From Xanthobacter sp. YC-JY1 (lineage in GTDB: Bacteria > Pseudomonadota > Alphaproteobacteria > Rhizobiales > Xanthobacteraceae): 64,000 bases of DNA. The notes under the pieces were generated by a model that was given only the letters and a program-made list of their open reading frames with translations, searched no databases and was not told where the DNA came from. Of this stretch, positions 5,396 to 33,622 are shown in pieces (position 1 is the first letter of the stretch; every line of letters starts with the position of its first letter). The stretch is taken from NCBI RefSeq assembly GCF_021730305.1, contig NZ_CP032674.1, forward strand, positions 1,039,001-1,103,000, read 5' to 3'. The position numbers and the translations under genes were made by a program.

Positions 5396-7942
<2,547 letters not shown>

Positions 7943-7945
7943 GCC

Positions 7946-8707: not shown

Positions 8708-8733
8708 CGCGCCGCAAGATGAAAGCCCCATAA

Positions 8734-9969: not shown

Positions 9970-10257
9970 GTGAGTGCGCCGCAACTGTTGGTTCACGAGA
10001 AGAAGGACACCGTGGGTGTCGTCGTGGTGGAGGGCCTGAAGGCCGGCACCGACATGCTGTGCGTGGTGACGCACGACAATTCGGCGTTCCACCTCACCTC
10101 CAAGATGGACGTGCCCATCGGCCACAAGGTCGCCCTCGCGGACATCAAGGCCGGGGACACCATCTGGAAGTACGGCCAGGACATCGGCATCGCCAAGGCC
10201 GACATCGCCAAGGGCGAGCACGTCCACGTCCACAATGCCAAGACCAAGCGCTGGTGA
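9970..10257 (+). CDS. suyA: (2R)-sulfolactate sulfo-lyase, small subunit
   Basis: 95 residues, an SAF domain related to the N-terminal part of altronate dehydratase (UxaA). Together with SuyB it cleaves (R)-3-sulfolactate to pyruvate and sulfite in the cytoplasm. The start is GTG at 9970 with GAGGAGG about 6 bp upstream; an upstream ATG at 9904 would read through the promoter and operator and is rejected. The core reads [11 protein letters not shown]-like [21 protein letters not shown], then [15 protein letters not shown] and the conserved GEHVHVHN end. The large subunit follows 8 bp later. Separate small and large genes are the SuyA/SuyB arrangement, unlike fused sugar-acid dehydratases. Confidence 0.88.
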
Positions 10258-15694: not shown

Positions 15695-16580
15695 GATCGC
15701 CACCCTGAAGGTCATTCCCGCCACCGAGGCGCGTCCGGAAATCTTTCGCGAGGACACGCCCGCCGACGCCATGACGGTGGTGGAAAAGCCGCTTTCCACC
15801 TGGGAGCTGCTCTACAACTGGAGCTTTTTCCGCAAGCTCATCATCCTCGCCGCGCTGGCATTGGCGTGGGAGATCTACGGGCGCGTCCTCAACAACGATT
15901 TGCTCTTTCCCACCTTCAGCGCCACCGTCTCCGCCTTCTTCACCAACGTGATGAACGGCGTGCTGCCGGAGCGCGCGTGGGGGTCGCTGCGGGTGCTGCT
16001 GATGGGATACGCCATCGGCATCACGCTGGCGGCGGTGCTGACGGCACTCGCCATCGCCTCGCGCATCGGCACGGACTTCCTGGAGACCATGACCTCCATG
16101 TTCAATCCGCTGCCGGCCATCGCACTGCTGCCGCTGGCGCTGATCTGGTTCGGGCTCGGCACCGCCAGCCTGGTCTTCGTGCTGGTGCACTCGGTGACAT
16201 GGGCCATCGCCCTCAACACCCACTCGGGCTTTCTCTCGGTGAGCCGGACGCTGAAGATGGTGGGCCGGAACTACGGGCTGAGGGGGCCGCGCTTCATCGC
16301 CACCATCCTCATCCCGGCGGCGTTTCCCTCCATCCTCACCGGGCTGAAGATCGGCTGGGCGTTTGCGTGGCGCACGCTGATCGCGGCGGAGCTGGTCTTC
16401 GGCGTGTCGTCCGGCTCCGGCGGCCTCGGCTGGTTCATCTTCGAGAACAAGAACATGCTGGACATCTCCAACGTGTTCGCCGGCCTCCTGACGGTGATCC
16501 TCATCGGCCTCGTGGTGGAAAACCTGATCTTCCAGACCATCGAGCGCCACACCATCCAGCGATGGGGCATGCAGGCCTGA
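15687..16580 (+). CDS. ABC transporter permease (SsuC/TauC family)
   Basis: 297 residues with about six membrane helices and a long cytoplasmic N-terminus of about 45 residues. Family stretches are NPLPAIALLPLALIWFGLGTASLVF and a loop equivalent to EAA (LKMVGRNYGLRGPRFIATILIPAAFP), although the Glu-Ala-Ala core itself is poorly kept. One permease gene implies a homodimer, unlike the DHPS transporter. A perfect hairpin terminator follows within 26 bp. Confidence 0.9.
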   Translation: MPEIATLKVIPATEARPEIFREDTPADAMTVVEKPLSTWELLYNWSFFRKLIILAALALAWEIYGRVLNNDLLFPTFSATVSAFFTNVMNGVLPERAWGSLRVLLMGYAIGITLAAVLTALAIASRIGTDFLETMTSMFNPLPAIALLPLALIWFGLGTASLVFVLVHSVTWAIALNTHSGFLSVSRTLKMVGRNYGLRGPRFIATILIPAAFPSILTGLKIGWAFAWRTLIAAELVFGVSSGSGGLGWFIFENKNMLDISNVFAGLLTVILIGLVVENLIFQTIERHTIQRWGMQA

Positions 16581-16605: not shown

Positions 16606-16629
16606 GACCGCCCTCACTCGAGGGCGGTC
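16606..16629. terminator. Terminator after the second ABC operon, inside the gntR2 3' end
   Basis: GACCGCCCTC/GAGGGCGGTC, a perfect 10-bp stem with a 4-nt ACTC loop, followed by TTGTATTT on the plus strand. It overlaps the gntR2 stop codon at 16614-16616, so it serves a convergent gene pair. Confidence 0.75.
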
Positions 16630-17366
16630 TTGTATTTGAGGTGGGCGGTGAAGCTCTCGCGATATTCCACGCGCCGTCCATCGAGCGCGTAGGCGACGCG
16701 TCGCACCTCCAGAACCGGGGCGCCCATCGCGATGCCCAGGTGCTGCGCCATGAGGGCGTCCGCCATCGCCAGGCCCACCTCGTCCATGGTGCGCATGATG
16801 GTGACGCCGCAGCGCTCCTGATAGAAGACGTACACCTCCTCCACGATATCCTCGCCGGTCTCCAGCCCCAGCGCGGCGAAGGTCTGCGCCGGCAGCGCCA
16901 GGCGTTCGTAGACCAGCGGCTGGTCCTTCTCACTGCGGATGCGGGTGAGCGCCAGCACCTTGCCATTGGGATCGAGATCGAGCTGCCGGCGCTCTTCGGC
17001 ACTCGCCGCGCGAACGGTCTGGGTGAGGAGATGCGCCACCGGATCGAGCGGACGCCCATCCCCGTGCACGAAGCGCAGGAAGCGGAAGCGCGACTTGGCG
17101 CTGGAGTGGGGCACCACCCGCGTGCCGCGTCCGTGCTGACGCTCCAGAAGCCCGTGGATCACCAGTTCCTCGGTGGCCTTGCGGATGGTGCCGATGGACA
17201 CGCCCAGCTCGCCGCAGAGCTGCTGCTCGCTCGGCAAATAGCCGCCGGGCTTCCAGACGCCATCGATGATGCGCTTCAGCAGCAGGTCGCGTGTCTGCTG
17301 GTAAAGCGGCCGTGCCTCGATGGCCGTGGCGCGGGCGTTTGTGGGGGCGATAGATTCCGATGTCAT
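16614..17366 (-). CDS. GntR-family (HutC-type) regulator, second copy
   Basis: 250 residues. N-terminal winged helix (PLYQQTRDLLLKRIIDGVW, LPSEQQLCGELGVSIGTIRKATEEL, RQHGRGTRVV) and C-terminal UTRA domain (LALTRIRSEKDQPLVYERLALP, VEYRESFTAHLKY). Its recognition helix (SIGTIRKATEEL) closely resembles that of GntR1 (SQGTVRKALDEM), so both may bind the same palindrome with different ligands. The start codon lies inside operator copy 4, which would give tight autorepression. It is divergent from the binding protein that heads the SDH/fumarase-like operon. Confidence 0.9.
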   Translation of the reverse strand: MTSESIAPTNARATAIEARPLYQQTRDLLLKRIIDGVWKPGGYLPSEQQLCGELGVSIGTIRKATEELVIHGLLERQHGRGTRVVPHSSAKSRFRFLRFVHGDGRPLDPVAHLLTQTVRAASAEERRQLDLDPNGKVLALTRIRSEKDQPLVYERLALPAQTFAALGLETGEDIVEEVYVFYQERCGVTIMRTMDEVGLAMADALMAQHLGIAMGAPVLEVRRVAYALDGRRVEYRESFTAHLKYKTALE

Positions 17367-17593: not shown

Positions 17594-18616
17594 ATGGGTC
17601 TCTTCTTCAAACGCGCGGCCGTGTTCGCCGCCGCAGCGCTAGCCCTTGTTCCGCTGTCGCTCGCCGCAGGAGCGGCGCGCGCGGAAACCGGAACGGTCCG
17701 CCTCGCCAAGCAGTTCGGCATCTCCTATCTGCCGATGACGGTGATGGAGGAGTTGAACCTCATCGAGAAGCAGGCCAGCGCCAAGGGCTTTGCCCTGAAG
17801 ACCGAATGGCTGCGCTTTACCGGCGGCTCGGGCATGAACGAAGCCCTCATCTCCGGCAATCTGGATATCGCCGCCGGCGGCGTCGGGCCGATGCTCACCA
17901 TCTGGGCCCGCACCCGCGGCAATCTCAAGGTGAAAGGCATCGCGGCGCTGAACGCCATGCCGCTCTACCTCGTCTCGGTGAACCCGAACGTGAAGACCAT
18001 CAAGGACTTCACCGCCGCCGACAAGATCGCCCTGCCGGCGGTGAAGACCTCCATCCAGGCGGTGACGCTGCAGATGGCCGCCGAGCAGGCCTTCGGCGCG
18101 GGCCAGCAGAACAAGCTGGATTCCCTGACCGTCTCCATGGGTCACCCGGACGCCCAGCTCACCATGATGGGCGGCAAGTCCGAGGTGACCGCGCATTTCG
18201 GCTCCTCCCCCTTCCAGGAACTGGAGCTGAAGGATCCGCGCGCCCACAAGGTGCTGGACAGCTATCAGGTGCTTGGCGGGCCGCACACCTTCAACGTCAT
18301 CTGGACCACCGAGAAGTTCGCCACCGAGAACCCCAAGGCCCTCGCCGCCGTCCTCGCCGCGCTGGAGGAGGCCAATGCCCTGATCCGCAAGGATCCTGCC
18401 GCCATGGCCGCGCTGTGGATCAAGGCCGAGGGCTCCAAGATGAGCGTCGACGAGGCGGTGGCCATCATCAAGGCGCCGGAGAACGAGTGGACCACCACCC
18501 CGAAGAAGGTGCTGTCCTATCTCGATTACATGCACCGGGCCGGCCTCGTCGGTGCCACCACCAAGGACTGGAAGGACATCTTCTTCCCCGCCATCCACGG
18601 TGCGCCGGGGGGCTGA
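17594..18616 (+). CDS. ABC transporter periplasmic binding protein, first of a paralogous pair
   Basis: 340 residues. The signal peptide has a cut site near GAARA|ET (about residue 30). Mature sequence opens VRLAKQFGISYLPMTVMEELNLIEKQ, an NMT1/SsuA-like fold; GSGMNEALISGNLDIAAGGVGPML lines the presumed cleft. GGGAG is placed before the ATG. It shares blocks such as KDFTAADKIALPAVK, HTFNVIWTTEKFA and the tail DWKDIFFPAIHG with the binding protein at 25.9 kb. These two bracket the same operon and probably feed the ATPase/permease at 14.9-16.6 kb, which lacks its own binding protein. The ligand is probably a sulfonated C3 acid. Confidence 0.88.
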   Translation: MGLFFKRAAVFAAAALALVPLSLAAGAARAETGTVRLAKQFGISYLPMTVMEELNLIEKQASAKGFALKTEWLRFTGGSGMNEALISGNLDIAAGGVGPMLTIWARTRGNLKVKGIAALNAMPLYLVSVNPNVKTIKDFTAADKIALPAVKTSIQAVTLQMAAEQAFGAGQQNKLDSLTVSMGHPDAQLTMMGGKSEVTAHFGSSPFQELELKDPRAHKVLDSYQVLGGPHTFNVIWTTEKFATENPKALAAVLAALEEANALIRKDPAAMAALWIKAEGSKMSVDEAVAIIKAPENEWTTTPKKVLSYLDYMHRAGLVGATTKDWKDIFFPAIHGAPGG

Positions 18617-18706
18617 ATATCTCCTAGGCCGGCGCGCGGCCATCGCGTGCCCTCCCGTCGCGGGCGGCAGCCTGCGGCGTCTCAAGAAGCCCTCAGGACG
18701 AACGAC

Positions 18707-19483
18707 ATGACCAGCACGAGCCAGAACGGGCGGCCGGCGGCAGCGCCGGCCGAGGAGACCCTGCGCGTCCGCGTGTGGCGCGGCCAGGCCGATGGCGCCT
18801 TCGAGGACTTCGCGGTGCCGCGCCGCGCCAGCCAGACCGTTCTCGACGTGGTGACGGAGATCCAGCGTGCACAGGACCCGACGCTCTCCTACCGCTTCGC
18901 CTGCCGGGTCGGGATGTGCGGCTCCTGCGCGATGGTGGTGAACGGCCGGCCGCGCTGGACCTGCCGCACCCGCGTCTCCGAAGCGGTGGACGGCGACATC
19001 CTCGTGCTGGAGCCCCTGCGCAACCTGCCGATCGTGAAGGATCTGACGGTCGACATGGTCCCCTTCTTCGAGAAATGGCGCGATGCCCACGGCGCCTTCG
19101 AGCCGGGCGAGGCCCCGCCCTCAGATTTCGCGCCGGTGCGGCCCGACAGCCCGAAGCGTAAGGCCGCCGATGCCGGCGTCGAGTGCATCAATTGCGGCGT
19201 GTGCTATTCCGCCTGCGACGTGGTGGCCTGGAACAAGGACTATCTCGGCCCGGCCGCCCTCAATCGCGCCTGGACGCTGGTGAATGACGAGCGCGACCGG
19301 GGCAATGCGGCGCGGCTCGCCGCGGTGTCCGGGGACGTGGGCTGCCACTCCTGCCACAGCCACATGAGCTGCACCGAGTTCTGCCCCAAGGATCTGGCGC
19401 CCACCTACGCCATCGCCGGCCTCAAGCGCGCCACCGCGCCCTCGCCGATCGGCCGCCTCCTCGCGCTGCTGGTGAAGTCATGA
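18707..19483 (+). CDS. Succinate dehydrogenase-like iron-sulfur subunit
   Basis: 258 residues with all cluster ligands of SdhB/FrdB. The [2Fe-2S] set is C66, C71, C74 and C86 (CRVGMCGSC plus WTC). C160, C163, C166 and C226 fit the [4Fe-4S] cluster, and C170, C216 and C222 the [3Fe-4S] cluster. It should carry electrons from the flavoprotein encoded at 22.4 kb to the membrane anchor subunits that follow. The gene order (B-C-D, exporter, hydratase, A) is not that of a housekeeping sdhCDAB operon. The ATG is 6 residues before the first unconserved stretch; the next start overlaps the stop (ATGA). The true electron donor is inferred to be a succinate analogue. Confidence 0.88.
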   Translation: MTSTSQNGRPAAAPAEETLRVRVWRGQADGAFEDFAVPRRASQTVLDVVTEIQRAQDPTLSYRFACRVGMCGSCAMVVNGRPRWTCRTRVSEAVDGDILVLEPLRNLPIVKDLTVDMVPFFEKWRDAHGAFEPGEAPPSDFAPVRPDSPKRKAADAGVECINCGVCYSACDVVAWNKDYLGPAALNRAWTLVNDERDRGNAARLAAVSGDVGCHSCHSHMSCTEFCPKDLAPTYAIAGLKRATAPSPIGRLLALLVKS

Positions 19484-19824
19484 ATCCCCTTCTCTACATG
19501 GCCCAGCGCGGAACGGCCGCGCTGCTGGCGCTCGCGGTGGCCGTGCATCTCGCCACCATGGTGCACGCCGTGCGCGGCGGGCTCAGCGCGACGGAAATCC
19601 TGTCGCGCACGGCAGGCAATGGCTGGTTCCTCGCCTTCTATTGCGTGTTCGTCTGCGCCGCCGCCATTCACGCCCCCATCGGCCTGCGCAGCGTGATCCG
19701 CGAATGGACCGGCTGGCGCTCACGCTCCCTCGACATGGCCATGCTCGCCTTCGCCACCGCCATCCTGGTGCTGGGGCTGCGCGCGGCGCTGGCGGTCTAC
19801 CAGCCGGGAGGACTGGTGCCGTGA
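19480..19824 (+). CDS. SDH-like membrane anchor subunit (small, three helices)
   Basis: 114 residues with three hydrophobic segments (about 9-30, 50-70 and 85-105). Histidines H23 and H64 fall inside or beside helices and could ligate heme b. Start and stop overlap both neighbours by 4 bp, so translation is coupled to the iron-sulfur and second anchor genes. Sequence similarity to standard SdhC/SdhD is weak; the assignment rests on size, topology and gene position. Confidence 0.75.
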   Translation: MNPLLYMAQRGTAALLALAVAVHLATMVHAVRGGLSATEILSRTAGNGWFLAFYCVFVCAAAIHAPIGLRSVIREWTGWRSRSLDMAMLAFATAILVLGLRAALAVYQPGGLVP

Positions 19825-20201
19825 AGCCCTCCGCCCTCTCCTCCACGACCCGCCCCGGCCTGCGCGAGGCTTCCCACCTGAAGCCGGGCTTCATCGCGGC
19901 GCTGCTCCACCGCCTGTCGGGCGTGGCGCTGGCGGTGTTTCTGCCCATGCACTTCATCGCGCTGGGCACCGCCCTCTCCGGCGCCAACGCGCTCGACAGC
20001 TTCCTGGCGGTCACCCACAGCCCGCTGGTGAAGATCGCCGAATGGGGCCTCGTGAGTGCCCTTGCCGTGCACATGGCCCTCGGCCTCCGGGTGCTGGCCA
20101 TCGAGTGGTTCTCCTTCCGCGGCCACACCGCCGGTGTAGTGGCGGGCGCCATCGCGGCAGGGCTCGCCGTGGGGCTCCTCTTCCTGCTGAGCGGGTGGTG
20201 A
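19821..20201 (+). CDS. SDH-like cytochrome b556 membrane anchor subunit
   Basis: 126 residues, GTG start overlapping the previous stop (GTGA). Contains HRLSGVALAV in the first helix (the HR-x-SG quinone-site signature of SdhC) and HMALGLRVLAIEW in the second, the H-x3-G-x-R pattern of the cytochrome b556 subunit, where His ligates heme b. Three helices. With the previous gene it should anchor the flavoprotein/iron-sulfur pair and pass electrons to ubiquinone. That makes the substrate oxidation respiratory. Confidence 0.85.
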   Translation: MKPSALSSTTRPGLREASHLKPGFIAALLHRLSGVALAVFLPMHFIALGTALSGANALDSFLAVTHSPLVKIAEWGLVSALAVHMALGLRVLAIEWFSFRGHTAGVVAGAIAAGLAVGLLFLLSGW

Positions 20202-20203
20202 GC

Positions 20204-20935
20204 ATGCTCGGCATTCCGCTCGCCACGCTGTCCGTGCTCTGGGCCGGCGCCTTTCTCGGCGCGCTGGCCGCGGGCGGGGCAGGCTTTGCCTTCGCCCTCG
20301 CCGCCTCCGCCATCTGGCTGCACGCGCTGGACCCGATCCAGACCACCGCGCTGATCGTCGCCTGCGGCAGCATCCTGCATCTCACGCTGGTCTGGCCCAT
20401 CCGCCGGTCCATCGACGGCGTGCGCCTCGCGCCCTTCCTCGTGGGCGCTTTGGTGGGGGTGCCGCTGGGCGTCCTCGTGCTCACCGCGGTGAACCCCGCT
20501 CCGCTGAAGCTTGCTCTGGGCCTCGGCATGGCGGCCTACGCCCTCTACGCGCTGCTCGCCCCGCGCCTTCCGGTGATCGTCGCCGGCGGCCGGTGGGCCA
20601 ATGCGGGCATCGGCTTCGTGGGCGGCATCCTCGGCGGCCTAGGCGGCTATTCCGGGGTTGTCCCCACCATCTGGACCCAACTGCGCGGCTGGCCGAAGGA
20701 GGTGGCGCGCGGGGTGTACCAGCCCTTCATCCTGTTCGCGCACGTGGTGACGCTGGCGGCCGTCGGGGTGGTGGGCATCGACGGGCGCTCCTGGCAGCTC
20801 ATCATCCTGGCCCTGCCGCCGCTCGCCATCGGCGCCGTGCTCGGCCTCCAGATCTACGGCCGTCTGAACGAGAAGGCATTCAAGCAGATGCTGTCGCTGA
20901 TGATCCTGATCTCGGGTCTGGCGCTGGTCTTCTAG
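20204..20935 (+). CDS. TauE/SafE-family membrane exporter
   Basis: 243 residues with about eight membrane segments. It carries the family pattern of two repeated halves with GAFLGALAAGGAGFAFAL near the N terminus and GIGFVGGILGGLGGYSGVVPTIWTQLRGWPKE in the middle. TauE/SafE proteins are linked to export of sulfite or organosulfur anions. Here it lies inside the SDH/fumarase-like operon, 2 bp after one gene and 9 bp before the next. A sulfite-export role would fit SuyAB- and Xsc-mediated desulfonation and is one of the best local hints that the operon handles a sulfonate. Actual cargo and direction are not visible from sequence. Confidence 0.87.
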   Translation: MLGIPLATLSVLWAGAFLGALAAGGAGFAFALAASAIWLHALDPIQTTALIVACGSILHLTLVWPIRRSIDGVRLAPFLVGALVGVPLGVLVLTAVNPAPLKLALGLGMAAYALYALLAPRLPVIVAGGRWANAGIGFVGGILGGLGGYSGVVPTIWTQLRGWPKEVARGVYQPFILFAHVVTLAAVGVVGIDGRSWQLIILALPPLAIGAVLGLQIYGRLNEKAFKQMLSLMILISGLALVF

Positions 20936-20944
20936 GAGCACCCC

Positions 20945-21817
20945 ATGGACCTCAACCTCGACGAAGTCGAAAAGATCTGCGCCGACCTCTATCTGCGCGC
21001 GCTCCAGTTGCTGCCGCCGGATATCAAGGCGGGCTTCTCGGAACTCCAGCGGACGGAGACGGACGCGACCGGCCAGGCCATCCTCGGCACCATGGTGGAG
21101 AACATCAAGGTCGCCGAGCGCACCCGCAACATCCTGTGTCAGGACACGGGTATCCCCATCTACAACATCACCATCGGCCGCAACGTGGCCTTCGACGGGG
21201 CAGGGCTGAAGGAGGCGGTGCGCCGCGGCGCGGCGCGCTCGACCAGGGAGAACTCCCTGCGCTCGTCGGTGGTGCATCCCATCACCCGCAAGAACGACCA
21301 GAATTCCTGTGGCATCCGCGTGCCGGTGATCCACATCGACTTCGACGACCGGGAGGAGACCGTCTCCATCGAGATGATCCCCAAGGGCTCGGGCTCGGAA
21401 AACGGCTCGTTCCTCAAGATGCTGCTGCCTTCGGACGGCATCACCGCCGTGAAGCGCTTCGTGGTGGACCGGGTGATCGAGCTGGGCGGCCGGGTGTGCC
21501 CGCCCACCATCGTCGGCGTCGGCATCGGCGGCACCTCGGACCTGTGCATGCACCTCGCGAAGATCGCCGCCACGCGGCCCTTGCGCACGATGTGCGAGGA
21601 CGCCGAAGGCGCGAAGATCGAGGCCGAGCTTTCCCGCGCGGTGAACGAATTGGGCATCGGGCCGCAGGGCCTCGGCGGGCGGTCCACGTCCTTCGCCGTC
21701 CATGTGGAAGTCGCCGCCACCCACATCACCCAGAACCCGGTCGCGGTGAACATCCAGTGCCATTCCGCCCGCCGCGCGCGGGCCACCCTCACCCCCGGCG
21801 GCATCGCCTTCAGCTGA
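20945..21817 (+). CDS. Class I fumarase/tartrate dehydratase-like hydratase, alpha subunit
   Basis: 290 residues of the FumA/TtdA N-terminal family. C65 (ILCQDTG), C185 (VCPPT) and C272 (NIQCHSARR) have the spacing of the three cysteines that hold the catalytic [4Fe-4S] cluster (71/190/277 in TtdA from memory). The KGSGSEN segment (147-153) corresponds to the usual KGGGSEN. The paired beta gene follows. Reaction of the family: reversible trans-hydration of fumarate-like acids. Standing between SDH-like genes and a ThDP enzyme inside a sulfolactate regulon, hydration of 3-sulfoacrylate to sulfolactate is the proposal. Ordinary fumarate or tartrate is the alternative. Confidence 0.87.
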   Translation: MDLNLDEVEKICADLYLRALQLLPPDIKAGFSELQRTETDATGQAILGTMVENIKVAERTRNILCQDTGIPIYNITIGRNVAFDGAGLKEAVRRGAARSTRENSLRSSVVHPITRKNDQNSCGIRVPVIHIDFDDREETVSIEMIPKGSGSENGSFLKMLLPSDGITAVKRFVVDRVIELGGRVCPPTIVGVGIGGTSDLCMHLAKIAATRPLRTMCEDAEGAKIEAELSRAVNELGIGPQGLGGRSTSFAVHVEVAATHITQNPVAVNIQCHSARRARATLTPGGIAFS

Positions 21818-21831
21818 TCCGGAGCGCCCCG

Positions 21832-22443
21832 ATGGCCCACCATGTCCTTGAAATGCCGGTTGATGCCGATCAGGTCCGCGCCCTGAAGGTCGGCGATACG
21901 GTGACGCTCCAGCGCACCCTGTTCGGCATCCGCGATGCGACGCAGATCCACATGTTCGACCGCGGCCGCACCACCCGCCTCGATCTCAAGGGGCATGCGG
22001 TGATCCACACCGCGCCCAACGTGCACCGCGTGGCGAAGTCCCCCGCCGCGCCCGCCGGCTACACGCCCTTCTGCATCGGCACCACCACCTCCATGCGCAT
22101 GGAGCGCTTCACCCGCCCGCTGATGGAGCGGGAAGGGGTACGCCTCATCGTCGGAAAGGGCGGCATGGGGCCGGCGACGCAGGAAGCCTTCCGCGACCTC
22201 GGCGGCGCCTATCTCGCCATCGTCGGCGGGGCGGCGGCGCTGGAGACCACGTGGATCGAGGAGATCGAGGACGTGGACATGGACGATCTCCACCCCGAGA
22301 GCCTCTGGAAATTCCGCATCCGCGATTTCGGCCCGTTGCTGGTGGGCATGGACGCCCATGGCGGCTCCCTGTTCGACCGGGTTCAGGCGGACGTCGCCAG
22401 CCGCCGCGACGCTGTGCTGGCCGGCATCGGAGCCTCCGAATGA
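21832..22443 (+). CDS. Class I fumarase/tartrate dehydratase-like hydratase, beta subunit
   Basis: 203 residues of the FumA C-terminal/TtdB family. VGDTVTLQ, GTTTSMRMERFT (the usual GPTTSxRM) and VGKGGMG are conserved. In contrast the active-site stretch normally written RDAAHKR reads RDATQIHMFDRG, with Gln where the family has His, and the next region is longer and unlike fumarases (KGHAVIHTAPNVHRV). This suggests a changed substrate while the cluster-bearing alpha subunit stays canonical. The ATG follows a GGAG; the stop overlaps the flavoprotein start (ATGA). Confidence 0.85.
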   Translation: MAHHVLEMPVDADQVRALKVGDTVTLQRTLFGIRDATQIHMFDRGRTTRLDLKGHAVIHTAPNVHRVAKSPAAPAGYTPFCIGTTTSMRMERFTRPLMEREGVRLIVGKGGMGPATQEAFRDLGGAYLAIVGGAAALETTWIEEIEDVDMDDLHPESLWKFRIRDFGPLLVGMDAHGGSLFDRVQADVASRRDAVLAGIGASE

Positions 22444-24170
22444 CCCCCGCCGTCGCGATCCGGGAGACGGACGTCCTCATCCTAGGCTCGGGCGGAGCTG
22501 GCCTGTTCGCCGCGCTTCACACCAAGAAGGCCGCGCCCGACCTCGACGTGACGGTGGCGGTGAAGGGCCTCATCGGCAAATGCGGCTGCACGCGCATGGT
22601 GCAGGGCGGTTACAACGTGGCTCTGGCGCCGGGCGACAGCGTCGAGCGCCATTTCATGGACACGGTCGAAGGCGGCAAGTGGCTCAACGACCAGGACCTC
22701 GCCTGGACGCTGGTGACCGAGGCGCAGGTGCGCATCCGCGAGCTGGAGACCGAGCTCGGCTGCTTCTTCGATCGCAATCCGGATGGCAGCGTCCACCAGA
22801 AGGCCTTCGCCGGCCAGACCTTCGACCGCACGGTGCACAAGGGCGACCTCACCGGCATCGAGATCATCAACCGCCTCATGGAACAGGTGTGGCGGCGCGA
22901 CGTGAACCGCATGGAGGACCACCGCGCCCTCGACCTCATCCCCGCCGCGGACGGCTCGGGCCTTGCCGGGGTGCTCATGCTGGACATGCGGACCGGCGTT
23001 CCGGTGCTGGTGAAGGCGCGTGCGGTGCTGCTCGCCACCGGCGGCGGGCCGACCATGTACAAGTACCACACCCCCTCCGGCGACAAGTCCTGCGATGGGC
23101 TCGCCATGGCCCTGCGCGCTGGCCTGGCGCTGCGCGACATGGAGATGGTGCAGTTTCACCCCACCGGCCTCCTCGCCGGACCCGGCACGCGCATGACCGG
23201 CACTGTGCTGGAGGAGGGGCTGCGCGGCGCCGGCGGCTGGCTCACCGACCGCACCGGCGCGCGTTTCATGCACCTCTATGACCCGCGCGGCGAGCGGGCC
23301 ACCCGCGACATCGTCAGCCGCTCCATCATGCGCCGCATCCGCGACGGCTACGCCACCGCCCATGGGGGCGTGCACATCGAGATGGGGCATCTCGGCCCCG
23401 ACCATGTGCGCAAGACCTTCAAGGGCATGGTGGAGCGCTGCGCCGATTGCGGCTTCGACCTGGCCGGAGGGCGGGTGGAGGTGATCCCGACCGCCCATTA
23501 CATGATGGGCGGCGTGGTGTTCGGCGGAAATTGCGGCACCGCCATGTCCCGTCTTTACGCGGCCGGGGAGGATACGGGCGGCGTGCACGGCGCCAACCGC
23601 CTGGGCGGCAACGGCGTCGCCAACTCCACCGTGTTCGGCGGCATCGCCGGCGATGCCATGGCGCGGGAAGTGGAGCGCGGGCGGGCCCTTGCCGATCCCG
23701 ATCCGGCGGCCATGGAACATGCGCTGGAGCGCGCCTTCTCTCCGCTGGGCCGCGATGCGCGGGACCTGCCCACCATCCGCGAGGCGCTCTACGAGGCCAT
23801 GTGGGATGACGTGGGCATCCTGCGCACGGCGCAGGGGCTGAAGCGTGCGCAGGCGACGCTGGGCAGCCTCGGCGATGCCGTCTCCCGCGCCGGCGCACCG
23901 GATGGGGATCGCCGCTACAACCTCACCTGGATGGACCGGCTGAACCTTGAGAATCTGGTGCTTGTCAGCCAGGCCATCACCGCCGCTGCGCTCGCCCGCG
24001 AGGACAGCCGGGGCGCCCATTTCCGCGAGGACTTCCCCGAGACCTCGGACCTTGATACCTCGCGCTACACGCTGGTGCGGCAGGAGGCGGGCCGCCTCGA
24101 CATTTCCACGGCCGCGGTGGCCTTCACCCGCGTCGCGCCCGGCCAGAGCCTGCTGAAGGACGTCGCATGA
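22440..24170 (+). CDS. SDH/fumarate reductase-like flavoprotein subunit with altered FAD-linkage site
   Basis: 576 residues. FAD dinucleotide motif GSGGAG (16-21). The catalytic framework of SdhA/FrdA is intact: MVQFHPTG, LEEGLRGAGG, RDIVSRSI, PTAHYMMGG and VHGANRLGGN supply the expected His, Glu, Arg and second His/Arg of dicarboxylate binding. The segment that in SdhA reads SHTxxAQGG, with the His that binds FAD covalently, reads GCTRMVQGG here with Cys50 at that position. FAD is therefore either non-covalent or linked differently. It starts inside the hydratase stop and is followed by the ThDP enzyme (ATGA). With the B, C and D subunits at 18.7-20.2 kb it makes a full quinone-reducing complex; 3-sulfopropanoate is the proposed substrate. 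Confidence 0.88.
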   Translation: MTPAVAIRETDVLILGSGGAGLFAALHTKKAAPDLDVTVAVKGLIGKCGCTRMVQGGYNVALAPGDSVERHFMDTVEGGKWLNDQDLAWTLVTEAQVRIRELETELGCFFDRNPDGSVHQKAFAGQTFDRTVHKGDLTGIEIINRLMEQVWRRDVNRMEDHRALDLIPAADGSGLAGVLMLDMRTGVPVLVKARAVLLATGGGPTMYKYHTPSGDKSCDGLAMALRAGLALRDMEMVQFHPTGLLAGPGTRMTGTVLEEGLRGAGGWLTDRTGARFMHLYDPRGERATRDIVSRSIMRRIRDGYATAHGGVHIEMGHLGPDHVRKTFKGMVERCADCGFDLAGGRVEVIPTAHYMMGGVVFGGNCGTAMSRLYAAGEDTGGVHGANRLGGNGVANSTVFGGIAGDAMAREVERGRALADPDPAAMEHALERAFSPLGRDARDLPTIREALYEAMWDDVGILRTAQGLKRAQATLGSLGDAVSRAGAPDGDRRYNLTWMDRLNLENLVLVSQAITAAALAREDSRGAHFREDFPETSDLDTSRYTLVRQEAGRLDISTAAVAFTRVAPGQSLLKDVA

Positions 24171-25846
24171 GCCCCGCACCCGCCCCCACTGCCGCTGCCC
24201 CTCTCCCCGCCGCGGGGCAGGACCTCGCCCCGCGTGGTGCGGACCTCGTTGTCCGCGCGCTTCAGGCGCATGGGGTGAAGCGCATCTTTTCCCTGTCCGG
24301 CAACCACATCATGCCCATCTATGATGCGTTGCTGGAAACGGACATCGCCCTTGTCCACGTGCGCCAGGAAGCGGCAGCGGTGCACATGGCGGATGCCCAT
24401 GCGCGCCTGACCGGTGAGGTGGGTGTGGCGCTCGTCACCGGCGGGCAGGGCTTGTCCAATGGCGCGGCCGCCTTGTTCACGGCCCTCGGGGCTGAATCCC
24501 CGGTGCTTCTGCTGTCCGGCCAGGCCGGCATCGGCGAATTGGGCCGAGGCGCCTTTCAGGAGATGGATCAGGCGGCCGTCGCGCGGCCCATGGCCAAGGC
24601 CTCGTGGATGGTGGAAAGCGTCGAAGCGCTCGGCGCCGACATCGCGCGGGCCATGCGCATTGCACGGGAGGGGCGGCCCGGCCCCGTTCATCTCGCGCTG
24701 CCGGTGGATCTGCTGGAACAGCGGCTGGCCGCATCGCAGCCGGCCGTGACGATCGAGCAGCCGGCCGGCACGCCGGATGCGCAGGCCATCGCAGGGCGCC
24801 TCGCGGGGCTGCTGGAGAGCGCGGACCGGCCGCTCATCCTGTGCGGTCCCGCCTTGTGCACGCCGCGCGGACGGGGCGCCATGGCGCGGCTGGAGGCCGC
24901 CACGGGCGTTCCGGTGATCGGCATGGAGAGCCCGCGCGGGGTGAACGATCCCGGCCTCGGCGCTTTTGCGGAATTGCTGGCCGAGGCGGACCTCGTAGTG
25001 CTGCTCGGCAAGGCGCTGGATTTCACGCTCAAGTTCGGCGCGCCGCCGGCGGTGGCGGCGGCCTGCCGCTTCGCGGTGGTGGACGCGGACCCGGACCTTC
25101 TGGCGCGTGCCGCCAAGGCGAAGGGTCCGCTCCTCGTGGAGCGCGTGGAAGGGGAGGCCGGCAGCGTGCTCGCCGCCCTCGCCGTATCCCCGCCTGCTCC
25201 CGCAGCCGTCCGTGCATCCTGGCTGGCGCGGGCGCGGGAGGCACTGGCCTTCCTGCCGGCGGCCTGGGCGAGCGCGCGGGCCGCCTCGGGGCGTATCCAT
25301 CCGGTGGAGCTGTGCGCCGCGGTGCGCGATTTCCTCGCCCGCCATCCCCATGGGACGCTCGTCTGCGACGGCGGCGAGATCGGCCAATGGCCGCAAGCCG
25401 TCGTCAAGACGCAGAACCGCATCATCAATGGGGTTTCCGGCACCATCGGCGCCTCCATTCCCTTCGCCATCGCGGCCCGGCTCGCCCGGCCGGAGGCGCC
25501 GGTGGTGGCGGTGATGGGGGACGGCACCTTCGGCTTCCACATGGCGGAGTTCGATACGGCGTTGCGCGTCGGCGCGCCCTTCATCGCGGTCATCGGAAAC
25601 GACGCCCGCTGGAACGCCGAGCACCAGATCCAGCTGCGCACCTATGGCACCGAGCGGACCCGCTACTGCGATCTGCTGCCCACCCGCTATGACGAGGTGG
25701 TGCGGGCGCTGGGCGGATACGGTGCCCTCGTCACCGATGCCGCCGACCTGCCGGCCGCCCTCGCCGAGGCCCGTGCGAGCGGGCTCCCGGCAGCGATCAA
25801 CGTGATGATCGAGGGCGTTCCCGCTCCGGTCATCCGGCGCGGCTGA
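24167..25846 (+). CDS. ThDP-dependent enzyme, candidate sulfopyruvate decarboxylase
   Basis: 559 residues, three-domain acetolactate synthase/benzoylformate decarboxylase fold. Glu68 in VRQEAAAVHMADAHAR is the ThDP-activating residue; the Mg-ThDP motif is GDG (about 449-451), 24 residues, then N (IGNDARWN). The central domain around GPALCTPRGRG is the nucleotide-like fold. It is not Xsc, which is at 28.6 kb and much more similar to known Xsc. Known sulfopyruvate decarboxylase is usually split in two subunits (ComD/ComE); a single-chain form would link SlcC-made sulfopyruvate to Xsc through sulfoacetaldehyde. Other 2-oxoacid decarboxylases or carboligases cannot be excluded. Confidence 0.8.
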   Translation: MSPAPAPTAAAPLPAAGQDLAPRGADLVVRALQAHGVKRIFSLSGNHIMPIYDALLETDIALVHVRQEAAAVHMADAHARLTGEVGVALVTGGQGLSNGAAALFTALGAESPVLLLSGQAGIGELGRGAFQEMDQAAVARPMAKASWMVESVEALGADIARAMRIAREGRPGPVHLALPVDLLEQRLAASQPAVTIEQPAGTPDAQAIAGRLAGLLESADRPLILCGPALCTPRGRGAMARLEAATGVPVIGMESPRGVNDPGLGAFAELLAEADLVVLLGKALDFTLKFGAPPAVAAACRFAVVDADPDLLARAAKAKGPLLVERVEGEAGSVLAALAVSPPAPAAVRASWLARAREALAFLPAAWASARAASGRIHPVELCAAVRDFLARHPHGTLVCDGGEIGQWPQAVVKTQNRIINGVSGTIGASIPFAIAARLARPEAPVVAVMGDGTFGFHMAEFDTALRVGAPFIAVIGNDARWNAEHQIQLRTYGTERTRYCDLLPTRYDEVVRALGGYGALVTDAADLPAALAEARASGLPAAINVMIEGVPAPVIRRG

Positions 25847-25933
25847 GCCTCAGGCCGCCCAAGACCCGATCCGGGCATCAGACCCGGCGACGCCCGCGGG
25901 ACGGGCGAGGAAACGCAGACGGAGGGCTCAAGG

Positions 25934-26941
25934 ATGATCGCATTCAAACGGAAGCTGGCAGGCGCGCTCGTGCTGCTGGCCGCGATGACGTCGGTCGCGG
26001 CGGCGGAGGTGGATAATGTGACCATCGCCCGTCAGCCGAGCCTCGGCCATCTGCCGCTGATGATCATGGAAGACCGCGGCCTGCTGGAAAAGGAGGCGGC
26101 GGCGCGCGGCGTGGCGAACCTGAAAACCCGCTACATCAAGCTCGCCGGTGGCGCGGCGATGAATGATGCCCTGCTGTCCGGCGCCATCCAGTTCGCTGCC
26201 GGGGGCGTGCCGCCTCTGGTGCTGCTGTGGGCCAAGACCAAGGACGGTTCCAATCCGGTCAAGGCGGCGGCCGCCATGAACTCCATGCCGCTCTTGCTCA
26301 ATACGTCCAACCCCAATGTGCGCTCGCTGAAAGACTTCACGGCGAAGGACAAGATTGCCCTGCCGGCGGTGAAGGTCTCGGTGCAGGCCATGTTCCTGCA
26401 AATGGCCGCGGAGAAGGAGCTGGGACCGGATCGCCGCAACGACCTCGACAAATTGACCGTCACGCTGTCCCACCCGGATGGCATGGCGGCGCTGCTCGCC
26501 GGCAATGAGGTGACCGCGCATTTCACCGCCGCGCCCATTCAGGAGCTGGAACTCAGGAAGCCCGGCGTCCACACGGTGCTCAACACGTTCGACGTGCTGG
26601 GCCAGCCGTCCACCTTCAACGTGGTGTGGACGACGACGCGCTTCGCCAATGACAATCCGAAAATCTATGCCGCCTTCTTCGCCGCGCTCGAAGAGGCCAT
26701 CGCCATCATCAACCGCGACAAGTCCGCTGCCGCCCGGGACTATGTCCGCCTCGCCAGCGACGGCAGCGAAGTGGCGCTCATCGAGGGCATCCTGAACGAC
26801 CCGCAGGTGACCTTCACCACCACCCCGCAGGCGATCCAGAAATATGCTGACTTCATGACCCGCACCGGCATGATCGCCGCCACGGCGCAGAGCTGGAAGG
26901 ACCTCTTCCTGCCCAACGTGCACGGCAAGCCCGGAAGCTGA
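25934..26941 (+). CDS. ABC transporter periplasmic binding protein, second of a paralogous pair
   Basis: 335 residues. Signal peptide with a likely cut after SVAAA (about residue 24). It opens VTIARQPSLGHLPLMIMEDRGLLEK and keeps the paired blocks seen in the protein at 17.6 kb (KDFTAKDKIALPAVK, STFNVVWTTTRFA, SWKDLFLPNVHG). Last gene of the long operon and followed by a terminator. Duplicate binding proteins may give the single ATPase/permease set two substrate specificities, for instance a sulfonated acid and its relative. Confidence 0.88.
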   Translation: MIAFKRKLAGALVLLAAMTSVAAAEVDNVTIARQPSLGHLPLMIMEDRGLLEKEAAARGVANLKTRYIKLAGGAAMNDALLSGAIQFAAGGVPPLVLLWAKTKDGSNPVKAAAAMNSMPLLLNTSNPNVRSLKDFTAKDKIALPAVKVSVQAMFLQMAAEKELGPDRRNDLDKLTVTLSHPDGMAALLAGNEVTAHFTAAPIQELELRKPGVHTVLNTFDVLGQPSTFNVVWTTTRFANDNPKIYAAFFAALEEAIAIINRDKSAAARDYVRLASDGSEVALIEGILNDPQVTFTTTPQAIQKYADFMTRTGMIAATAQSWKDLFLPNVHGKPGS

Positions 26942-27293: not shown

Positions 27294-28373
27294 TCAGCCG
27301 GCCCGCGTCTCACCGAGGCTGGTTGCGGCCGGCCGTGAGTTCTGCCAGACGCTGTCGATCTTTCCAGACATCGCGACCGGAAGCGTGCGGCCGGCCTGGG
27401 CGCAGGTCAGCGCGATCATGTGGAACACGTCGTCCTGCGAGCAGCCGCGGGAGAGATCATTGGCGGGCTTGGCGAGGCCCTGAAGCACCGGCCCGATGGC
27501 CTTCGCCCCGCCGATCCGCTGGGCGATCTTGTAGCCGATGTTCGCGGCATCCAGATTGGGGAAGACGAAGACGTTGGCATCGCCCCGGATCCTCGATCCG
27601 GGCGCCGTCTTGGCCGCGCCCACCGTGGCGACGAAGGCGGCGTCGAACTGCAATTCCCCTTCGATCACCAGATCCGGTTCCGCCTGACGCACGAGGCGCA
27701 CCGCCTCCACTACCTTGTCCACCCGCTGGTGGCGCGCGCTGCCGTTGGTGGAGAAGGAGAGCATGGCCACGCGGGGCGCCTCGCCGGTCATGGCGTTGTA
27801 GGAGTGCGCCGCCGCGCGGGCGATATCGGCCAGCTCGGCCGCGTCGGGGTCGATCACCAGCCCGCAGTCGGAGAACACATAGGCCCCCTTCTGCTCGTGA
27901 TAGTCCTCGCACAGGATCATGAGGAAGAAGCTGGAGACGATCTTCGCGCCCGGCGCGAGGCCGATGATCTGGAGCGCGGCGCGCACCGTCTCGGCCGTGG
28001 TCGCCACCGCGCCGCCGACCGTGCCGTCGGCATCCCCCTGCCGCACCATCATGGCGGCGAAGGCGAGCGGCTCGCGCACGCGGCGCGAGGCGGTGGCGAG
28101 GTCCATGCCCTTGGCGTGGCGCAAGAGGTGCAGGGCCTTGGCATAGGCTTGAAGGCGCGGCGAGGTGGCGGGATCCTCGATGGCAATGCCCCGCGCATCA
28201 CCATCGAGGGCCGCCAAAACCTCCTCGCGGGCACCGAGGAGGATCGGCCGGGCAATCCCTTCCCGCGCGGCGCGACGGGCGCCGGCGGCAATGCGCGGGT
28301 CGCTGCCTTCCGGCAGAACGATGCTGCGGGGGGCGGCACGCGCGGCGTCGATGATCCGGTCGAGGGCGAGCAT
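27294..28373 (-). CDS. pta: Phosphate acetyltransferase
   Basis: 359 residues, the short Pta form (PTA_PTB domain only, no N-terminal regulatory part). It converts acetyl phosphate, released by Xsc, to acetyl-CoA. Family stretches include VLPEGSDPRI, ADGTVGGAVATTAETVRAAL, SFSTNGSARH and DANVFVFPNLDAANIGYKI. The ATG at 28373 has AGAGGAAG about 5 bp upstream; an upstream start falls in the repeat region. Last gene of the isethionate-type set; the xsc terminator and two hairpins separate it from xsc by 187 bp, so read-through or its own promoter is needed. Confidence 0.92.
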   Translation of the reverse strand: MLALDRIIDAARAAPRSIVLPEGSDPRIAAGARRAAREGIARPILLGAREEVLAALDGDARGIAIEDPATSPRLQAYAKALHLLRHAKGMDLATASRRVREPLAFAAMMVRQGDADGTVGGAVATTAETVRAALQIIGLAPGAKIVSSFFLMILCEDYHEQKGAYVFSDCGLVIDPDAAELADIARAAAHSYNAMTGEAPRVAMLSFSTNGSARHQRVDKVVEAVRLVRQAEPDLVIEGELQFDAAFVATVGAAKTAPGSRIRGDANVFVFPNLDAANIGYKIAQRIGGAKAIGPVLQGLAKPANDLSRGCSQDDVFHMIALTCAQAGRTLPVAMSGKIDSVWQNSRPAATSLGETRAG

Positions 28374-28401
28374 GGCCTTCCTCTGGGGACTAGAGCACGC
28401 G

Positions 28402-28430
28402 CCGACCTGATTGCATCGCAATCACGTCGG
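28402..28430. repeat. Palindromic intergenic repeat, copy A, between xsc and pta
   Basis: A 13-bp inverted repeat (one mismatch) CCGACCTGATTGC / GCAATCACGTCGG around a central ATC. It resembles the small mobile hairpin elements common in Hyphomicrobiales intergenic DNA; that comparison is from memory. Confidence 0.55.
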
Positions 28431-28468
28431 ATAACGCGTTCTCTTTCTTAAGGTTAGAGGGCGATTCA

Positions 28469-28495
28469 CCGAACGGATTGATCCAATCCGTTCGG
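28469..28495. repeat. Palindromic intergenic repeat, copy B, between xsc and pta
   Basis: A perfect 12-bp inverted repeat CCGAACGGATTG / CAATCCGTTCGG, also around ATC, 38 bp after copy A. Both together make the gap able to fold in RNA. Confidence 0.6.
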
Positions 28496-28512
28496 ATCGC
28501 GCTCTGGGGCAG

Positions 28513-28553
28513 AAAAAGCCGGGCGGAGCGTGTGGAGGAGCGACCCCGCCCGG
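28513..28553 (-). terminator. Terminator downstream of xsc
   Basis: On the minus strand, CCGGGCGG...CCGCCCGG (8-bp stem, 19-nt loop) is followed by CTTTTT. It begins 8 bp after the xsc stop codon. Confidence 0.65.
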
Positions 28554-28560
28554 ATCTCAG

Positions 28561-30336
28561 TCAGCGCGCGATCTGCTCACGCATGTCGGAGCGCGCGATG
28601 CCGGCCACTGGAACGGGCTTCTTCATGGCATCCCGGCGGAATGGCTCGCCGAGCTCCTGGTTCAGCACCACCTCGATGAAGGTGGTGATGCCCTTCTTCT
28701 GCTCCTCGGCGGCGGTGTGGATGGCCTCCTTGAGGCTCTCCGGCGTGTCCACGCGCACCCCCTTGAAGCCACAGCCCTCGGCGATCTTCGCGTAGGAGAG
28801 CTTGGGGTCGAGCTCGGTGCCGACGAAGTTGTTGTCGTACCAGAGCGTGGTGTTCCGCTTCTCGGCGCCCCACTGGAAATTGCGGAACACCACCATGGTC
28901 ACCGGCGGCCATTCCTCGCGGCCGATGGAGGTCATCTCGTTGATGGAGATGCCGAACGCGCCGTCGCCGGCAAATCCGAACACGGGCACGTCGGGGCAGC
29001 CGATCTTGGCGCCGATGATGGCCGGGAAGGCATAGCCGCAGGGCCCGAACATGCCCGGCGCGAGATATTTCCGCCCGATCTCGAAGCTCGGATAGGCGTT
29101 GCCGATGGCGCAGTTGTTGCCGATGTCCGTGGACATGATGACGTCCTTCGGCAGCGCCGACTGGATGGCCCGCCACGCCTGACGGGGCGACATGCGGCCC
29201 TTGTCGCGGGCGCGGGCGTCCTCGTTCCAGCGGGTGCCGGGATCGTCGTCCTCATGGTCCATGGAGGCGAGCTGCTGGAGCCAGCGCGAGCGGGTCTGGT
29301 GGATCAGCGCGCGGCGCTCCGCCCGTCCGGCTTCGCCGGCGCTGGACGCGAGCTGGTCCAGCAACTGTCCGGCCACTTCCTTGGCGTCGCCGCAGATGCC
29401 CACGGTGATCTTCTTGGTGAGGCCGATGCGGTCCGGGTTGATGTCCACTTGGATGATCTTGGCCTGGCGCGGCCAGTAGTCGATGCCGTAGCCGGGCAGG
29501 GTGGAGAAGGGGTTGAGCCGGGTGCCCAGCGCCAGCACCACGTCGGCCTGCGCGATCAGCTCCATGGCGGCCTTGGAGCCGTTGTAGCCCAGCGGGCCGA
29601 CGGCGAGCGGATGGCTGCCGGGGGCGGCGTCATTGTGCTGGTAGCCGGAGCAGACGGGCGCATCGAGCCGCTCGGCCAGCGCCATGGCTTCGCCGATGGC
29701 GTTGCCGATGACCACGCCCGCGCCGTTGAGGATCACCGGGAACTTCGCCTCGGAGAGGATCTGCGCCGCCTCGGCGATGGCGTTGCGGCCGCCGGCGGGA
29801 CGCTCGAGGCGCACGATCTGCGGCAGCTCGATGTCGACCACCTGAGTCCAGAAATCGCGGGGCACGTTGATCTGCGCCGGGGCGCAGGCGCGCCAGGCCT
29901 TCTCGATCACGCGGTTGAGCACTTCGGCGACGCGGGAGGGGTCGCGCACCTCCTCCTGGTAGCAGACCATGTCCTGGAACATGGCCATCTGCGAGACTTC
30001 CTGGAACCCGCCCTGCCCGATGGTCTTGTTGGCCGCCTGGGGCGTCACCAGCAGCATGGGGGTGTGGTTCCAGTAGGCGGTCTTCATGGCGGTGACGAAG
30101 CCCGTCACGCCCGGTCCGTTTTGGGCGATGGCCATGGCCATGCGGCCGGTGGCGCGGGTGTAGCCGTCGCAGATCAGGCCCGCATTGGTCTCGTGGGCGC
30201 AATCCCAGAAGCGGATGCCGGCCTTGGGGAAGAGGTCGGAGACCGGCATCATGGCCGAGCCGATGATGCCGAAGGCCTCGTTGATGCCGTGCGCCTGCAG
30301 GACTTTGATGAACGCCTCTTCGGTGGTCATCTTCAT
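28561..30336 (-). CDS. xsc: Sulfoacetaldehyde acetyltransferase
   Basis: 591 residues, ThDP enzyme. It converts sulfoacetaldehyde and phosphate to acetyl phosphate and sulfite. Diagnostic Xsc text is present: MTTEEAFIKVLQ, GIIGSAMMPVSDLFPKAGI, CAHETNAGLICDGYTRATG with the catalytic Glu, TIGQGGFQEVSQM and GDGAFGISINEMTSIGR with the ThDP motif. Start ATG at 30336 (or 30330, six bases later). A pta gene follows, the usual pairing. Sulfoacetaldehyde can come from isethionate through the GMC dehydrogenase upstream, and possibly from sulfopyruvate through the ThDP enzyme at 24.2 kb. Confidence 0.96.
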   Translation of the reverse strand: MKMTTEEAFIKVLQAHGINEAFGIIGSAMMPVSDLFPKAGIRFWDCAHETNAGLICDGYTRATGRMAMAIAQNGPGVTGFVTAMKTAYWNHTPMLLVTPQAANKTIGQGGFQEVSQMAMFQDMVCYQEEVRDPSRVAEVLNRVIEKAWRACAPAQINVPRDFWTQVVDIELPQIVRLERPAGGRNAIAEAAQILSEAKFPVILNGAGVVIGNAIGEAMALAERLDAPVCSGYQHNDAAPGSHPLAVGPLGYNGSKAAMELIAQADVVLALGTRLNPFSTLPGYGIDYWPRQAKIIQVDINPDRIGLTKKITVGICGDAKEVAGQLLDQLASSAGEAGRAERRALIHQTRSRWLQQLASMDHEDDDPGTRWNEDARARDKGRMSPRQAWRAIQSALPKDVIMSTDIGNNCAIGNAYPSFEIGRKYLAPGMFGPCGYAFPAIIGAKIGCPDVPVFGFAGDGAFGISINEMTSIGREEWPPVTMVVFRNFQWGAEKRNTTLWYDNNFVGTELDPKLSYAKIAEGCGFKGVRVDTPESLKEAIHTAAEEQKKGITTFIEVVLNQELGEPFRRDAMKKPVPVAGIARSDMREQIAR

Positions 30337-30419
30337 GACGGAAAAATCCTCTTGGAACTTTGGAAGTCTTTGGGGAGAGGGAGGCGGCGGCCGCGCGCCG
30401 CCTCCGGATCGGCGGGGGA

Positions 30420-33430: not shown

Positions 33431-33505
33431 GGCAGTTTCCTCTCTGCGGAGCAGACGATGCGACGAAGGGATGAGATGAGTCAATCCATTTTTTGAAATG
33501 AAACG

Positions 33506-33520
33506 TCTCATTCAGTGAGA
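33506..33520. promoter_or_regulatory. Inverted repeat in the iseJ/iclR intergenic region
   Basis: TCTCA-TTCAG-TGAGA, next to AT-rich TTTTTTGAAATGAAAC, in the gap between the divergent dehydrogenase and IclR genes. A candidate IclR operator. Confidence 0.4.
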
Positions 33521-33622
33521 TTTATGTTGTGCAATGCGAAGGCCGCCGTGTGCACCTGCGTTCCGTTTGACACCCCGCTGCCAGCCGCTAAGGCTGCACG
33601 TAGCGAGAGGCTGACGATTCAG

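Follow-up and report, generated by a model that had tools for sequence, protein, structure and literature searches.

Bacterial degradation of 3-sulfopropanoate (3-sulfopropionate) has been described at the level of its intermediates. According to passages of PMC11489063, Enterococcus gilvus forms the compound when it ferments dihydroxypropanesulfonate (DHPS), homotaurine metabolism yields it as well, and its degradation by bacteria had been previously unreported, apart from the Konstanz thesis of Jutta Mayer cited there, in which homotaurine is broken down in Roseovarius nubinhibens (ISM) via 3-sulfopropionate, sulfoacrylate and sulfolactate. Passages of two other papers state that 3-sulfopropionate degradation needs further investigation (PMC9594981) and that the mechanism in Bilophila is unclear (PMC12890257), and in the accessible parts of the open-access literature no gene assignment for this degradation was found. 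For the last intermediate, it is stated in passages of PMC12421959 and PMC11382572, respectively, that SuyAB cleaves R-sulfolactate and that HpsN delivers it.

Here we describe an operon at positions 17594-26941 (+ strand) of the window, which is the whole stretch of 64,000 nucleotides analysed from Xanthobacter sp. YC-JY1 (contig NZ_CP032674.1). As judged from its sequence, this operon is probably a sulfonate version of the succinate-to-malate steps, by which 3-sulfopropanoate would be converted through sulfoacrylate to (R)-sulfolactate and then to pyruvate and sulfite. The first-pass annotation had stated that no pathway of this form was described, which does not hold, since the thesis, as cited in PMC11489063, reports the same intermediates; within the open-access literature searched, what appears to be new is the gene assignment, the origin from succinate dehydrogenase (SDH) and fumarase, and how widely the family occurs. 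The genes of the operon, in their order, are:

17594-18616, + strand: SBP1, sulfonate-type substrate-binding protein (TIGR01728 SsuA_fam, E=3.1e-21, below cut-off)
18707-19483, + strand: sdhB-like iron-sulfur subunit (TIGR00384, 190.5 bits against a cut-off of 88; PF13085)
19480-19824, + strand: sdhC, SDH-type membrane anchor (PF01127)
19821-20201, + strand: sdhD, cytochrome b556-type membrane anchor (PF01127; TIGR02970, 49 bits against a cut-off of 52.3, searched from 19692)
20204-20935, + strand: tauE, TauE/SafE family exporter, candidate sulfite exporter (PF01925)
20945-21817, + strand: fumA, class I hydratase alpha subunit, candidate sulfoacrylate hydratase (PF05681; NF004885, 296.7 bits against a cut-off of 276; key residues kept)
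21832-22443, + strand: fumB, class I hydratase beta subunit (PF05683; R34, T85, R89 and K109 kept)
22440-24170, + strand: sdhA, SdhA-like flavoprotein, candidate 3-sulfopropanoate:quinone dehydrogenase (PF00890, PF02910; H240, R289, H353 and R387 kept)
24167-25846, + strand: thdp, thiamine diphosphate (ThDP) enzyme (PF02775/PF02776; nearest solved chain is the 2-hydroxyacyl-CoA lyase 7pt1)
25934-26941, + strand: SBP2, sulfonate-type substrate-binding protein (TIGR01728, E=6.3e-19, below cut-off)

Four neighbouring pairs overlap by 4 bases (sdhB/sdhC, sdhC/sdhD, fumB/sdhA and sdhA/thdp) and the gaps are only 2 (sdhD-tauE), 9 (tauE-fumA) and 14 bases (fumA-fumB), so the genes from sdhB to thdp are likely to form a single transcript. 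The gene content listed by the first-pass annotation, i.e. the four SDH-like subunits, the class I hydratase pair, the exporter, the ThDP enzyme and two binding proteins, is all in place, and suyAB, slcC and comC are present nearby as it had said (named by family and synteny); hpsN, an xsc/pta block and the separate canonical SDH and FumC go beyond it. Because our own gene caller misses some GC-rich genes (hpsN, sdhD and fumB among others in the window), the neighbourhoods rest on tblastn of the window proteins and on the deposited annotation. Related genomes carry the block as well, and so do alpha- and betaproteobacteria known by name; it is more than a chance arrangement. The operon is a real, conserved catabolic module.

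The distribution of the module was summarized for the 296 genomes of the window's family, in which SdhA homologues (E 1e-120 or better) with at least 71% identity are called A-type and those with 63-66% identity B-type. The SdhA family is present in 41 genomes, 20 of them A-type and 21 B-type. It turned out that SuyB (E 1e-80) occurs in all of the A-type genomes (20 of 20, from 10 genera), compared with 16 of the remaining 276 (Fisher p 1.3e-21, a statistic that ignores shared ancestry). The same 20 genomes hold an A-type FumA at 76% identity or more (G048 has just a 72-residue fragment of it, next to a contig end), and within the window's genus SuyB is found in 3 of 3 genomes with the module versus 1 of 11 without it. 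Comparative genomics supports a putative function in sulfonate metabolism.

The arrangement of the genes was followed in named genomes, where the best 80 of 584 relatives comprise 54 loci with an A-type hydratase, 14 with a B-type hydratase, 3 with an A-type beta subunit only and 9 with no hydratase in the stretch. As flank lengths differ, flank counts are lower bounds: suyB, slcC or comC is in the flank of at least 33 of the 54 A-type loci (suyB in at least 25) versus at least 2 of the 14 B-type loci (suyB in at least 1). Alpha- and betaproteobacteria among the named genomes carry the module next to suyAB/slcC/comC. The single run fumAB-sdhA-suyAB-slcC-comC occurs in Methylocella (L068) and in eight genomes that belong to one genus (L039-L046), with other orders elsewhere. 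For example, the deposited order in plasmid pMRAD01 of M. radiotolerans is binding protein, sdhBCD, fumAB, sdhA, ThDP enzyme, binding protein and TauE, followed by two UxaA-family genes (suyAB), DctA, slcC-like, comC-like and GntR genes. Among 29 named genomes without suyB in the flank, SuyB is encoded elsewhere in 23, namely 15 of 19 A-type genomes (including L103, typed from the beta subunit alone), 4 of 5 B-type genomes and 4 of 5 in which no hydratase was seen. These 4 of 5 B-type genomes lie outside the window's family, and the contrast between the two types is not absolute. The four A-type genomes without SuyB (L088, L097, L103 and L141) have Xsc in the flank or elsewhere in the genome.

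In the predicted pathway, the ABC transporter with SBP1 and SBP2 would import 3-sulfopropanoate, and the SdhABCD-like complex would oxidize it to 3-sulfoacrylate with transfer of the electrons to quinone. The class I hydratase FumAB would add water onto C2 to give (R)-sulfolactate, SuyAB would cleave the latter into pyruvate and sulfite, and the sulfite would exit via TauE. SlcC and ComC would convert the two sulfolactate enantiomers into each other and give access to sulfopyruvate, a branch that Xsc may take in genomes without SuyAB, while hpsN would feed DHPS into the same sulfolactate pool. The stereochemistry fits this order of steps: class I fumarases make (S)-malate, and by our reasoning (R)-sulfolactate has the same spatial arrangement. 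Besides, among simple alkenes only 3-sulfoacrylate hydrates to sulfolactate, and its saturated parent is 3-sulfopropanoate, so that by this reasoning 3-sulfopropanoate is the substrate suggested where dehydrogenase and hydratase genes run together with suyAB. The route is that of the first-pass annotation, and in view of presence and absence, synteny, the separate SDH and FumC and the stereochemistry it stands as the best reading, with the substrate itself inferred.

Some features leave room for another substrate. The transporters vary, with DctA beside suyAB in pMRAD01 and tripartite tricarboxylate transporter genes near many modules, and the active-site Thr is replaced by Glu258 throughout the family. 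The module might act on another sulfonated or succinate-like compound, such as sulfosuccinate or a substituted sulfopropanoate, and its link with suyAB would then reflect a shared sulfonate-catabolism island and not consecutive steps. We hold this to be improbable, since fumAB, sdhA, suyAB, slcC and comC are directly adjacent in the genus mentioned above and in Methylocella, and since no other simple alkene would yield sulfolactate by hydration.

Several results weigh against the route from 3-sulfopropanoate to sulfolactate, and the first concerns the hydratase, as FumA scores above the equivalog cut-off of NCBIfam for fumarate hydratase (NF004885). The operon could accordingly be read as ordinary C4-acid enzymes, a spare SDH with a fumarase or tartrate dehydratase that happens to lie within a sulfonate island. 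The set does resemble complex II in its four subunits (A, B and two membrane anchors by profile search), in the flavoprotein (PF00890/PF02910), PF13085 and PF01127 families, and in the retained substrate-site residues H240, R289, H353 and R387, whose roles we assume to be those of the corresponding His, Arg, His and Arg. However, the flavoprotein stays below the SDH cut-offs (TIGR01816, 328.5 vs 727.35 bits; TIGR01812, 422.1 vs 567.3 bits), has Cys for the flavin His and Glu for the Thr, and belongs to a cluster in the order sdhBCD-tauE-fumAB-sdhA. Tartrate dehydratase was rejected as a candidate, since both hydratase subunits fall short of its cut-offs (alpha 172.2 vs 365 bits; beta 156.4 vs 264 bits). 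At other places the genome encodes SdhA and FumC of the canonical kind (966.9 and 756.3 bits, respectively, each over its cut-off); none of its other homologues is more than 36% identical to the window SdhA, and no further match to the hydratase alpha subunit was found there at E 0.001. These data and the presence of SuyB in every A-type genome of the family make the C4-acid explanation quite unlikely, and both sulfosuccinate and the tartrate or malate acids, which the first-pass annotation had offered as alternatives, come out behind 3-sulfopropanoate.

The hydratase shares its catalytic residues with the two-subunit class I fumarases and L-tartrate dehydratases (FumAB, TtdAB; solved as 7xky), but has A-type-specific residues beside them. 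C65, D67, R106, C185 and C272 of the alpha subunit and R34, T85, R89 and K109 of the beta subunit are conserved, presumably as [4Fe-4S] cysteines and for substrate or cluster binding as in Leishmania class I fumarase. In a comparison with one solved alpha chain and two solved beta chains, the A-type-specific positions near the active site are S107/S108 (P/N in 7xky) and S121 (N) in alpha, and G32, I33 and T84 (T, A and P in 7xky and 2isb) in beta.

A second difficulty is the direction of the SdhA-like complex. The His of FrdA and of the genome's own SdhA (L003), which we take to be the flavin-linking one, is replaced by Cys (C50) in 141 of the 141 aligned rows that have a residue at this position, as well as in 124 of 124 family rows of the tree set, many of the alignment rows being overlapping loci of one genome and the tree set including haloarchaeal and Rhodococcus members. 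Loss of this His in E. coli FrdA spares fumarate reduction and impairs succinate oxidation, so that oxidation is only the presumed direction. C50 may bind FAD, or the flavin may be free as in TfrA, and a free flavin would urge caution in the same respect. At another position all of 146 aligned rows have Glu (E258) in place of the Thr of FrdA and of the SdhA encoded elsewhere in the genome. C50 and E258 were also considered as discriminators between the substrates of the two types and rejected, because both substitutions are common to A- and B-type. The best NCBIfam match of the window SdhA is the fumarate reductase TfrA (496.7 bits, below the cut-off of 718), and together with the Cys it would suit a reverse operation, an electron sink in which sulfolactate would lose water to form sulfoacrylate and the complex would reduce this to 3-sulfopropanoate. 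The presence of SuyAB, TauE and sulfonate uptake genes at the same place speaks for consumption instead, and Methylobacterium and its relatives are aerobic; the reverse operation is highly improbable.

Besides, the names SuyA, SuyB, SlcC and ComC rest on family and synteny, as a specific model is lacking or its cut-off is unmet. A further point is the B-type modules, whose hydratase alpha subunit is only 32-38% identical to that of the window. SuyB occurs in only 1 of the 21 B-type genomes of the family, and suyB is nearby in 1 of 14 named B-type loci and in none of the 12 in the family, the 9 on plasmids and the 20 further ones, with SlcC or ComC homologues near 5 of the 55 B-type or B-branch loci. 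As suyB is thus mostly missing around B-type modules, there is no strict tie between the dehydrogenase and sulfolactate. The transporter is likewise shared with only three of these 55 loci (0 of 12, 0 of 14, 2 of 9 and 1 of 20), which include two Paracoccus plasmids and where the ATPase and the permease show 76-80% identity. It was set aside as proof that both types handle a single substrate, and counts only as a hint at one imported compound.

Roseovarius nubinhibens, a rhodobacterial relative, bears on the same question. In Rhodobacteraceae (345 genomes, the family of G348) the SdhA family is present in 37 genomes with 61-67% identity, and of these, 20 modules were opened, each of which is B-type and lacks suyB in its flank. 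The route reported for R. nubinhibens has the same sequence of intermediates as the one predicted here; it differs in that the citing passage names no genes and in that these 20 modules are B-type while the window has an A-type hydratase. The thesis route may thus run on a B-type module, which also counts against a strict assignment, and if R. nubinhibens carries one, its hydratase may also make sulfolactate, perhaps the other enantiomer.

Across the family, the dehydrogenase can be regarded as the constant part, with an exchangeable hydratase, which can be a divergent class I paralogue or give way to an ArgH-like lyase, the latter on two plasmids of haloarchaea. In a FastTree tree of 127 sequences, with three window-genome paralogues as the root and support values uninspected, the deepest branches are those of Rhodococcus jostii RHA1 and two haloarchaea; the hydratase of R. 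jostii RHA1 is A-type (51% and 48%). In Haloarcula sp. GH36 and Natribaculum luteum, sdhA and sdhB have as neighbours tauE, two genes of the UxaA family and the gene of an ArgH-like lyase (L194 6518-14515; L197 7584-14552), and the lyase is possibly a replaced hydratase. This case is weakened because the SuyB-like proteins are only 32-35% identical and because the lyases pass the argininosuccinate lyase cut-off (323 bits to argH); to XcbC they score 257-260 bits, below the cut-off of 575. A role of XcbC-type lyases in sulfoacrylate chemistry is our assumption, and the passages of two papers on these lyases carry no mention of sulfoacrylate.

A broader proposal, which we consider doubtful, is a widespread 3-sulfopropanoate:quinone oxidoreductase family of bacteria and haloarchaea as a constant core with varied hydratases and lyases, in which the B-type enzyme would add water at the sulfonate-bearing carbon and release sulfite and malonate semialdehyde with no need of a sulfo-lyase. 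Sulfite-handling genes stand near several B-type modules (sulfite dehydrogenase or oxidase, a YeiH-type or putative sulfate exporter, TauE), while none of these was seen at locus L198. A methylmalonate-semialdehyde dehydrogenase is near 5 of 33 B-type loci versus 3 of 77 A-group loci, which suggests, as speculation only, malonate semialdehyde as a possible B-type product. The possibility that the R. nubinhibens hydratase makes sulfolactate makes the idea of hydrative desulfonation less likely. Three of these dehydrogenase genes were profiled as CoA-acylating (TIGR01722, 681-695 bits) and lie near B-type modules, at L193 13409-14899, L125 4075-5589 and L201 5624-7144. Genes for DUF3604 and aconitase X proteins were also seen near some SdhA-family members (L146 3099-8573, L134 about 3800-8000 and L198 5126-6771), with no fumAB within the stretch examined at L146 and L134.

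The ThDP gene is found in 22 of 54 A-type and 6 of 14 B-type named clusters, and because it occurs with both types, a step before the hydratase, perhaps even before the dehydrogenase, is more likely for the enzyme. A function as sulfopyruvate decarboxylase feeding Xsc was not supported, as Xsc is present in 9 of 20 genomes with a ThDP gene in the flank versus 14 of 20 without (flanks only).

The module provides candidate genes for 3-sulfopropanoate degradation in Methylobacterium strains that can be cultured. With it come an SDH paralogue for which respiration of a sulfonate is predicted, and a family whose members can serve as markers in soil, phyllosphere and sea.

The genes on both sides of the operon, including the regulators and the transporter of the module, are listed below:

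5478-6581, + strand: substrate-binding protein of the upstream (DHPS-side) ABC transporter (open reading frame named by eye; permease 3030-3815, ATPase 4604-5395)
6626-7942, + strand, start uncertain: hpsN, sulfopropanediol (DHPS) 3-dehydrogenase giving (R)-sulfolactate (solved 8v35, E=3.2e-219, 731 bits; PF00815)
7946-8707, + strand: short-chain dehydrogenase/reductase, candidate DHPS 2-dehydrogenase, hpsO/P-like (PF13561; role from the passage on hpsNOP families in PMC11382572)
8734-9729, + strand: Zn alcohol dehydrogenase, candidate DHPS 2-dehydrogenase, hpsO/P-like (PF08240/PF00107; role from the same passage)
9970-10257, + strand, start uncertain (frame reaches 9904): suyA, putative (R)-sulfolactate sulfo-lyase small subunit (position before suyB, conserved pairing; no profile match)
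10266-11546, + strand: suyB, putative (R)-sulfolactate sulfo-lyase large subunit (PF20629/PF04295; no SuyB-specific model, named from family and synteny)
11636-12640, - strand: comC-like sulfolactate dehydrogenase (NF040650, 193.7 bits, below the cut-off of 500; synteny)
12637-13572, - strand: slcC-like 2-hydroxyacid dehydrogenase (2-hydroxyacid dehydrogenase families, below cut-offs; synteny)
13771-14568, + strand: GntR regulator 1 (named by eye; recurs in related clusters)
14924-15694, + strand: module ABC transporter ATPase (homologues accompany other A-type modules; three B-type modules have one at 80%)
15687-16580, + strand: module ABC transporter permease (homologues accompany other A-type modules; the three B-type modules just mentioned have one at 76-77%)
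16614-17366, - strand: GntR regulator 2 (named by eye)
27294-28373, - strand: pta, phosphate acetyltransferase (TIGR00651, 353.7 bits against a cut-off of 311.2)
28561-30336, - strand: xsc, sulfoacetaldehyde acetyltransferase (TIGR03457, 977.8 bits against a cut-off of 676.4)
30420-33430, - strand: MFS transporter, named by eye, and GMC oxidoreductase (NF002550, 606.8 bits against a cut-off of 605)

The identity of hpsN is close to certain by its match to the solved enzyme, and the second ABC transporter, hpsN and the two dehydrogenases at 3030-9729 form a DHPS degradation block leading into the same sulfolactate hub. With the SuyAB/SlcC/ComC and HpsNOP systems, as described in passages of PMC11382572 and PMC12421959, the locus shares the downstream genes and this hub, but here a redox and hydration arm would feed the hub besides HpsN.

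On the other side, the region 27294-34450 (pta, xsc, MFS transporter, GMC oxidoreductase and an IclR-type regulator named by eye) resembles an isethionate cluster, and C2 and C3 sulfonate routes therefore stand side by side. We take the MFS transporter and the GMC oxidoreductase to be iseU/iseJ-like. Further downstream, at 40282-45136 (- strand), cytochrome bd-type oxidase genes adjoin a formate-dehydrogenase-like molybdoenzyme, both named by eye only.

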